From positions 1-55,394 of the forward strand of contig JACPIM010000024.1 in NCBI GenBank assembly GCA_016188045.1: 55,394 bases of DNA. Reading direction: 5' to 3'. The notes under the pieces are model-generated. The model had not been told where the DNA came from. It did no database searches and worked only from the letters and a program-made list of their open reading frames with translations. The DNA is from Candidatus Woesearchaeota archaeon. Lineage in GTDB: Archaea > Nanobdellota > Nanobdellia > SCGC-AAA011-G17 > JACPIM01. Positions 1,773 through 53,359 of the stretch are shown piece by piece; positions within the stretch are counted from its first letter, which is position 1; each line of letters opens with the position of its first letter. The translations under genes and the position numbers were made by a program.

Positions 1773-1800
1773 ATAAGAACCAAGGTTCTTATAACTCCCT
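1773..1800. repeat. Palindromic interspersed element, copy A
   Basis: A perfect hairpin ATAAGAACC AA GGTTCTTAT (1773-1792) followed by AACTCCCT. It is one of a family found at 3264, 5190, 8077, 15440, 17091 and inside a tRNA intron at 52993. The shared plan is a stem opening ATAAG and closing CTTAT, followed by CAWCTTCCT or a close variant. Here it sits between the eL18 promoter and the next gene. Confidence 0.75.
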
Positions 1801-2721: not shown

Positions 2722-3267
2722 ATGGTTAATTTTAAACAAATAGCAATTGTGGTTGCTATCTCTATTCTAAGTGCTTTTTTTATTGGTTTGTCTATTGATG
2801 CTTTTTATGCTGAACCGAAATATGATGATTTTTGCAATAGTTATGAATATCCTAGAGCTATTCCTGAAAAATATCCTGGCTATTTTCCTAATTGCACTTA
2901 TCAACAAACAAAAGAAGAAACTGAATGTTATAAACAAGGAGGTTTGGTAGAATTTGATTATGATCAAAATGGTTGCAGTAAATTTAAATCATGCAACTTA
3001 TGTAATAAAGAATTTGAAAAAGAAAGAGCGAAGTATAACAGAAATGTATTTTTTATTACTGCTCCTTTAGGAATAGCATTAATAATCTATGGTGTATTCT
3101 TTTCTGTTGAATTTATAGGCAGCGGATTTATGTTTGGTGGGGTATTTACTTTAGCTTACGGAACAATAAGATATTTTTCTGATATGAGCAAGATTATGAG
3201 AGTAATTACGATATTTATAGAATTAGTTATTGTTGTTTGGGTTGCTTTAAAAAAAGTTAAAAGATAA
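2722..3267 (+). CDS. Membrane protein with Cys-rich extracytoplasmic loop (181 aa)
   Basis: An N-terminal hydrophobic segment (residues 7-27) leads into an outside domain of about 75 residues with six cysteines (FCNSY, NCTYQ, ECYKQ, GCSKF, SCNLCN). Three further hydrophobic segments follow (about 108-128, 130-148 and 157-175) with a basic KKVKR end. The even spacing of Cys suggests disulfides outside the membrane. I know of no function. The stop codon TAA lies inside palindromic element B, so the element forms the 3' end of the gene. Confidence 0.72.
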   Translation: MVNFKQIAIVVAISILSAFFIGLSIDAFYAEPKYDDFCNSYEYPRAIPEKYPGYFPNCTYQQTKEETECYKQGGLVEFDYDQNGCSKFKSCNLCNKEFEKERAKYNRNVFFITAPLGIALIIYGVFFSVEFIGSGFMFGGVFTLAYGTIRYFSDMSKIMRVITIFIELVIVVWVALKKVKR

Positions 3268-3323
3268 GAAACTGCGTTTCTTATAATCTTCCTAAATAAT
3301 AACATAGGTTCTTATAAATTCCT
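3264..3323. repeat. Palindromic interspersed element, copy B, plus a half copy
   Basis: A hairpin ATAAGAAAC TGC GTTTCTTAT (3264-3284) is followed by AATCTTCCT. A half element, AGGTTCTTATAAATTCCT, follows at 3306-3323 and matches the right half of copy A. The first copy contains the stop codon of the upstream gene. Confidence 0.7.
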
Positions 3324-5189: not shown

Positions 5190-5219
5190 ATAAGAAACTG
5201 CGTTTCTTATCAACTTCCT
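5190..5219. repeat. Palindromic interspersed element, copy C
   Basis: A hairpin ATAAGAAAC TGC GTTTCTTAT (5190-5210), identical in its stem and loop to copy B, followed by CAACTTCCT. Read on the minus strand, its AGGAAGTTGA encodes the last residues and the TGA stop of uS4. It occupies the uS4-uS11 gap inside the operon. Confidence 0.78.
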
Positions 5220-8076: not shown

Positions 8077-8156
8077 ATAAGAAACTACGTTTCTTATCGT
8101 CTTCCTCAATAAGGATTACATCCTATCAATCTGATTAGGTTATTATCAACTCACCT
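8077..8156. repeat. Palindromic interspersed elements, cluster D (three copies, two decayed)
   Basis: D1 is a perfect hairpin ATAAGAAAC TAC GTTTCTTAT (8077-8097) with CGTCTTCCT. D2 is ATAAGGATTACATCCTATC (8109-8127), a GG-type stem missing one T. D3 is a decayed half, GGTTATTATCAACTCACCT, ending near 8156. They lie between two divergent promoters. Confidence 0.72.
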
Positions 8157-15439: not shown

Positions 15440-15520
15440 ATAAGAACCAAGGTTCTTATCAACTCCCTTTATATTAGATTCTTATCATCTTCCTTTATAA
15501 GGATTTCATCCTTATCAACC
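15440..15520. repeat. Palindromic interspersed elements, cluster E (two full copies and one half)
   Basis: E1 is ATAAGAACC AA GGTTCTTAT (15440-15459) with CAACTCCCT, identical in its stem to copy A. E2 is a right half, ATTCTTATCATCTTCCT, ending at 15494. E3 is ATAAGGAT TTC ATCCTTAT (15497-15515) with CAACC, a GG-type stem. E1 and E3 show paired changes on both stem sides. Confidence 0.78.
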
Positions 15521-52957: not shown

Positions 52958-53132
52958 TGAGCGGGTAGCTCAGCTTGGTTAGAGCACTGTTAATAAGGGT
53001 AAACCCTTATCAACCCAAATTAGTGCAAGTCTTATATGGCCATCTTTGGTACAAGAATAAAAGCCAAGGATGCACTAAGCGAGCCAGAGGTCGAGAGAGT
53101 GTAAACCTCGAATTCAAATCTCCCCCCGCTCA
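52958..53132 (+). tRNA. tRNA-Ile (anticodon UAU) with three introns
   Basis: Exons are 52958-52989, 53029-53036, 53082-53097 and 53113-53132; CCA follows in the DNA at 53133-53135. Intron 1 (52990-53028, position 29/30): exon GCAC pairs with intron GTGC. Intron 2 (53037-53081, 37/38): exon CTTA pairs with intron TAAG. Intron 3 (53098-53112, 53/54): exon CGAG pairs with intron CTCG. Removing all three gives acceptor GAGCGGG/CCCGCTC, D-arm GCTC/GAGC, anticodon arm CTGGT-CTTATAA-GCCAG and T-arm GAGAG-TTCAAAT-CTCCC (one A-C mismatch). Anticodon UAU reads AUA; most archaea use CAU with agmatidine. TATA-like TTTAAATATATT lies upstream. Confidence 0.85.
52993..53016 (+). repeat. Palindromic interspersed element inside tRNA-Ile intron 1
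   Basis: ATAAGGGT AA ACCCTTAT followed by CAACCC matches the GG-type intergenic element E3 (ATAAGGAT TTC ATCCTTAT CAACC) in layout, with paired stem changes. It occupies most of the 39-nt intron. Confidence 0.7.
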
Positions 53133-53178
53133 CCATAATAATAAGTTTTATAAAAGCAAGATTCTAAATTTTTAATAG

Positions 53179-53359
53179 GCTCCCGTGGTCTAGCCCGGTC
53201 AATGACACGGCCCTTTCGAAGAGCTTTCTTTTAGAAAAAGAAACTTCGGAAAGAAAAATCTAAAGAGAGGCCGTAATCCCGAGTTCAAAAGAACCTTTCT
53301 TTTTAAAAAGAAACGTTCGCGAAAGAAAAAGAAAGTTCATGAAAGTCTCGGCGGGAGCA
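53179..53359 (+). tRNA. tRNA-Glu (anticodon UUC) with two introns
   Basis: Exons 53179-53218, 53268-53289 and 53346-53359. Intron 1 (53219-53267, 49 nt, canonical 37/38): exon CTTT pairs with intron AAAG. Intron 2 (53290-53345, 56 nt, T-loop 59/60): exon TTCA pairs with intron TGAA. Splicing gives acceptor GCTCCCG/CGGGAGC, anticodon arm CGGCC-CTTTCGA-GGCCG and T-arm CCGAG-TTCAAAT-CTCGG, a complete 76-nt tRNA-Glu; CCA is not encoded. Both introns carry long A/T-rich imperfect hairpins, and intron 2 shares its core with an intergenic repeat at 39074. Confidence 0.88.

Follow-up and report, generated by a model that had tools for sequence, protein, structure and literature searches.

The first intron of the tRNA-Ile(UAU) gene of this Woesearchaeota archaeon carries a copy of a dispersed hairpin repeat. 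Our preferred reading, to which we give a probability of about 0.77, is that the repeat joined a short bulge-helix-bulge (BHB) intron that already existed at position 29/30, or replaced its loop. Six relatives have a palindrome-free intron at the same position, which argues that the Ile intron is older than its palindrome, or at least independent of it. Positions given without a contig name refer to the window, which is the whole 55,394-nt stretch of DNA analyzed. C2, C9, C14 and C15 denote contigs of the archaeon's own genome, G0xx the genomes of relatives, and L0xx or L2xx the stretches around matches.

Results

The tRNA-Ile(UAU) gene lies at 52959..53135 on the plus strand, encodes its CCA end and is interrupted by three introns on the same strand. 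In a blind enumeration of BHB motifs, intron 1 (52990..53028, 39 nt, position 29/30) was the top-ranked candidate at 22/24; intron 2 (53037..53081, 45 nt, position 37/38, score 13) and intron 3 (53098..53112, 15 nt, position 53/54 in the T arm, score 12) were also listed. The motif of intron 1 has a central helix GCAC/GTGC, an outer helix AGA/TCT and an inner helix TAAT/ATTA. Its two 3-nt bulges (TG|T and AA|G), separated by the 4-bp helix, sit at the exon–intron junctions, as in archaeal BHB motifs generally. ARAGORN called tRNA-Ile(TAT) once 52990-53028, 53037-53081 and 53098-53112 had all been removed; it made no call on the raw sequence or after either two-intron removal tried. Leaving intron 1 in place gave no call, and removal of all three introns restored the tRNA, whose mature form would measure 78 nt. 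The enumeration and ARAGORN were used instead of default tRNA scans. By default ARAGORN found no tRNA in the window, and an Rfam scan missed the Ile gene and the neighboring Glu gene because of their non-canonical introns. An ARAGORN match on L028 was rejected as a spurious tRNA, and the Ile call rests on the intron-removed sequence and the parsing of orthologs.

The genome encodes one splicing endonuclease gene, for a protein of 217 aa, and the tRNA-Ile introns are presumably spliced in the cell. In the predicted fold of the intron 1 region, the palindrome with a GUU/AAC pairing is favored at the expense of the exact inner helix of the BHB. Intron 3 was seen only in the archaeon's own genome among those compared. 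The usual archaeal decoder of AUA is a CAU tRNA; this archaeon and 11 relatives of its order instead read AUA with a tRNA-Ile whose anticodon is UAU.

Intron 1 contains ATAAGGGT-AA-ACCCTTAT-CAACCC at 52993-53016, as the original prediction stated. The palindrome itself, ATAAGGGTAAACCCTTAT (52993..53010, plus strand), is perfect and of the delta type of the repeat. With the tail CAACCCA it forms a 25-nt core (52993..53017, plus strand). Elsewhere in the 1.02-Mb genome there are three exact copies of the 18-mer (C2:37218, C9:183155 and C14:53153), and at two of them, C9:183148-183172 and C14:53146-53170, the identity extends over 25 of 25 nt (ATAAGGGTAAACCCTTATCAACCCA). The predicted match in layout and tail to an intergenic copy, presumably the one then called E3, was also found: it is a gamma copy, ATAAGGATTTCATCCTTATCAACC, at 15497..15520 on the plus strand.

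Automatic parsing covered the tRNA-Ile(UAU) orthologs of 11 relatives, none closer than another genus. Six of these (G001 from the same family; G011, G022, G043, G044 and G057 from the same order) have a palindrome-free intron of 18–23 nt at 29/30, which in G001 reads TAACTTCATCAGAAGTTGTGCAA. The other five (G002, G051, G058, G052 and G023) have no intron there. Every tRNA-Ile with a 29/30 intron was found again by ARAGORN after splicing in silico, with BHB scores of 20–22 across the seven genomes including the archaeon's own, the only one of the seven to hold the palindrome. The original prediction had held that a mobile palindrome seeded intron 1, and the ortholog comparison it proposed does not bear this out. 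Such an insertion into an intronless tRNA gene, in which the ATAAG foot would pair with another CTTA(T) by the splice site, seems to us improbable.

The architecture of the intron is in keeping with the later arrival of the repeat. The central and outer helices of the BHB lie outside the repeat, and the inner helix overlaps only its first two bases. Without the 25-nt core, intron 1 would measure 14 nt, which is below the length of the relatives' introns. Either replacement of the loop or clean insertion into a shorter intron would account for this equally well. A parallel exists at intron 2. Every one of the 11 relatives parsed has an intron at this site, with an unrelated hairpin in G002 (GGAAACTTTTAAAAAAAGTTTCATCAAAA) and a short loop in G001. 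The copy of intron 2 in the window is free of palindromes of the ATAAG/CTTAT family. Since the GTGC of intron 1 is dictated by exon pairing, the old intron may instead have been lost and a palindrome-bearing one regained at the same site. We nevertheless infer that the event ran from an existing intron to one carrying the repeat.

Genome-wide, the family comprises about 40 hairpins of the form ATAAG-variable arms-CTTAT with a CAAC tail. The pattern ATAAGN{6,14}CTTAT matched 72 times in the archaeon's own genome, against 29 for a reversed-pattern control; requiring an inner A...T gave 27 matches against 2. Each unit is a stem-loop of ~18–21 nt followed by CAAC and a subtype sequence, ~25–30 nt overall. 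The subtypes are alpha (ATAAGAAACTRCGTTTCTTAT-CAACTTCCT), beta (ATAAGAACCAAGGTTCTTAT-CAACTCCYT), gamma (ATAAGGATTKCATCCTTAT-CAACCTGC) and delta (ATAAGGGTAAACCCTTAT-CAACCCA). The feet ATAAG and CTTAT are invariant across subtypes, the tail varies with subtype, and the inner stem varies in a compensated manner (AAAC/GTTT, AACC/GGTT, GGAT/ATCC, GGGT/ACCC). Fixed feet, paired stem changes and subtype tails would be the pattern expected of a structurally constrained hairpin. Some delta copies apparently sit inside hairpins of the beta type or are joined to them (L054, L059, L061, L075 and L076 from Pacearchaeota JACPGZ; L025 and L040 from the archaeon's own genome).

Outside tRNA-Ile, the window also contains two further intergenic copies of the beta subtype, ATAAGAACCAAGGTTCTTATCAAC at 15440..15463 on the plus strand and ATAAGAACCAAGGTTCTTAT at 1773..1792 (strand not assigned), and three alpha copies on the plus strand. 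The alpha copies overlap the stop of ORF 2722-3267 (ATAAGAAACTGCGTTTCTTAT, 3264..3284), lie between two minus-strand ORFs (5190..5210, with tail CAACTTCCT) and lie between divergent ORFs (ATAAGAAACTACGTTTCTTAT, 8077..8097).

A census of copies with at least 8 paired positions yielded 43 rows (41 unique sites) in the archaeon's own genome. At least 8 of the 43 rows fall in tRNA introns where about 1 was expected (P ~1e-4 to 1e-7), taking our own estimate of ~1.5–3 kb of tRNA introns in ~80–120 kb of non-coding DNA. Forward copies are in tRNA-Ile(UAU) at 29/30, the T loop of Lys(UUU), the D and T loops of Arg(CCU), the D loop of Arg(UCU) and the D loop of Glu(CUC); reversed copies are in Lys(CUU) and a tRNA-Leu. 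The Glu(CUC), Leu and Lys(CUU) assignments (3 of the 8) were partly read by hand from the sequence and have no clean ARAGORN call. Degenerate copies are present in Ser(UGA) and a tRNA-Gly. The search of other tRNA introns suggested with the original prediction thus recovered the element, and the link it proposed stands in part: the palindrome family is common to intergenic DNA and tRNA introns and enriched in the latter, whereas its seeding of the Ile intron was not supported.

The remaining copies are mainly intergenic, with some in other genes. A beta copy lies within the RNase P RNA gene (L003:1501-1520 in L003:1178-1588; C14:83455-83474) and a second half-copy, GTTCTTATCAACTCC, comes after it. 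PEP synthase has a degenerate delta copy translated in frame (NKGKPLSTQ; L029:1501-1518; C14:23013-23030), located in the linker that connects its PPDK_N and PEP-utilizers domains. Six or more copies of the alpha or beta subtype are antisense and mostly 13–17 nt upstream of predicted start codons (L013, L014, L035, L044, L046, L048), beside the Shine-Dalgarno region. Three own-genome copies adjoin tRNA 5' ends. Direct contact with the 5' or 3' end of a tRNA gene was seen for L022, L047 and L048 in this genome and for L071, L079 and L053 in other DPANN genomes.

A tight gamma/delta pattern returned 30 stretches among 84,980 species, with Woesearchaeota, Pacearchaeota and other Nanoarchaeia accounting for 25, and had no match in viral contigs. 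Within the same order it was found in only 5 of 61 genomes, the archaeon's own included. Among these species, the tight variants are almost confined to DPANN archaea, where they recur in tRNA introns: several of the stretches (L051, L052, L057, L064 and L077) lie within T-loop or D-loop introns. L071 and L079 had been taken for intron copies from ARAGORN output and were rejected; the repeat adjoins the tRNA 5' end there. L062, from a Pacearchaeote, has a copy just upstream of an Rfam RNase P RNA match. A different hairpin family turns up repeatedly in the tRNA introns of G001 and G002, the sister genera (e.g., L203, L207, L210, L218, L219); its form is roughly AAACTTTT..AAAAGTTT or AAGCTTTT..AAAAGCTT, followed by the tail AnCAAAA.

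The points in favor of intron creation by the repeat come from other tRNAs. The D loop of Arg(UCU) and the T loop of Arg(CCU) each have an intron with the repeat at a place where G001 is uninterrupted. Glu(CUC), on C15, contains a beta copy within a 45-nt intron of its D loop. Its paralogue in the window, tRNA-Glu(UUC) (53179..53359, plus strand; introns at 53219-53267, position 37/38, and 53290-53345, T loop), has an uninterrupted D loop, CCCGGTC|AATGAC, and represents the empty site. In several D- and T-loop introns, as read from the sequence, ATAAG can be paired with a second CTTA(T) just before a 4-mer complementary to the exon. The foot and this second motif could form the inner helix of a new BHB, which would be a route to creation at these sites. 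However, in G001 the intron in the Arg(CCU) D loop is 14 nt long and lacks the repeat, the D-loop intron of Glu(CUC) in G001 holds a different hairpin, and the 25-nt core does not contain the exon-complementary 4-mer that a BHB requires. The Arg and Glu cases could reflect either intron birth with the repeat or the spread of ready-made introns between tRNA genes. That the DPANN repeat creates new introns at D- and T-loop sites, though not at Ile 29/30, is a tentative idea that we rate at rather long odds.

We think it very unlikely that the hairpin functions as a signal for processing or regulation, with the same enzyme cutting intron ends and intergenic hairpins. The antisense copies near start codons and those adjoining tRNA ends would suit such a role, but the repeat also occurs in tRNA introns, RNase P RNA and coding sequence, and it is missing from orthologous tRNA-Ile introns. 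Moreover, the best BHB enclosing the hairpin in copies outside tRNA introns had a mean score of 14.7, equivalent to the 14.5 of shuffled flanks, whereas copies in tRNA introns averaged 17.3 against 14.3. The splicing frame is present only in the tRNA copies and is supplied from outside the 25-nt core, and the shared processing enzyme that had been predicted is left unsupported. Chance in an AT-rich genome can be dismissed: short perfect hairpins do arise randomly, as the 29 control matches for the loose pattern illustrate, but the 25-nt identity at two other places (~2e-9 expected from composition) and the clustering of the family's 24-nt forms in DPANN across 85k species refute it, and the match passes the test against genome composition set by the original prediction.

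Discussion

We propose that a copy of a putative non-autonomous mobile hairpin element entered, or replaced, the loop of an existing BHB intron in this lineage. The splice-site part of the intron would have stayed outside the repeat, so that the splicing endonuclease would still excise the repeat-bearing intron and the insertion would be harmless.

The number of copies, their scatter over many sites and the lack of the repeat in orthologs suggest that it is mobile, and it resembles a non-autonomous element. In the archaeon's own 92.6%-complete genome, we found no reverse transcriptase and no match to the Y1 transposase family PF01797, even at E<=1. Mobilization by an IS200/IS605 system was rejected because this genome has no Y1 and because the flanks of a Y1 element in G002 have no ATAAG-type hairpin; that element has a different hairpin. 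Classical MITEs have terminal inverted repeats with a target site duplication; the whole unit here is one palindrome plus tail, and no consistent flanking duplication was visible by eye. No polymorphism of the repeat was found either. The D-loop gamma introns of Arg(UCU) and Arg(CCU) are nearly identical, and the T-loop introns of Ser(UGA) and G002 Leu(UAA) have a long stretch in common, ATAAGGATTGCATCCTT(A/G)TCAACCTGCAAACTT(A/G)TT. Ile intron 1 shares only the 25-nt core with other copies. That the copies have the hairpin plus tail in common, and not whole introns, speaks against an origin of the Ile copy by reverse splicing.

Several known systems are similar in part. Rickettsia palindromic elements (RPE) are found in intergenic DNA, as in-frame parts of protein genes and in RNA genes including RNase P RNA (PMC2229807). 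Compared by setting and length rather than by sequence homology, our repeat is likewise intergenic, in frame in PEP synthase and within RNase P RNA, and neither has a known mobilizing enzyme. However, RPE are bacterial and 105–146 bp long, whereas the archaeal repeat has a core of ~25–30 nt and occurs in spliced tRNA introns. REP elements are 20–40 bp hairpins with an unpaired GTAG or CGTC tag at one end, intergenic and sometimes in ORFs (PMC3733652). Our repeat is also a hairpin with an unpaired end tag (CAAC, or GTTG on the other strand), but this tag is neither GTAG nor CGTC, and no counterpart of the IS200-like Y1 transposase associated with GTAG REPs was found in the 92.6%-complete genome. 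In sponge mitochondria, several families of short perfect hairpins invade non-coding DNA and occasionally an rRNA gene (PMC2800124); the passages of that paper covered here make no mention of tRNA introns. In Thermoproteales, similar introns are described at different sites of different tRNAs, gained after lineage divergence (Fujishima et al. 2010, as described in PMC4090602). Whole introns were compared in that account, whereas here the common unit is a hairpin core that is also found outside tRNAs, without intron ends. A search of the open-access literature turned up no account of dispersed palindromes in the tRNA introns of archaea.

The origin and spread of archaeal tRNA introns is an open question, for which our literature search gave only the transposition of whole introns in Thermoproteales. 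In the present case tRNA introns can be tied to one particular, traceable repeat, and relatives have this intron in a form that lacks the repeat. If the repeat does create introns at D- and T-loop sites, it would be an archaeal counterpart of eukaryotic introners there, and the Arg and Glu sites are named places at which to test intron birth with the repeat in closer genomes. The Ile(UAU) case shows that dispersed repeats can enlarge tRNA introns, and spliced introns are likely shelters for small selfish hairpins.
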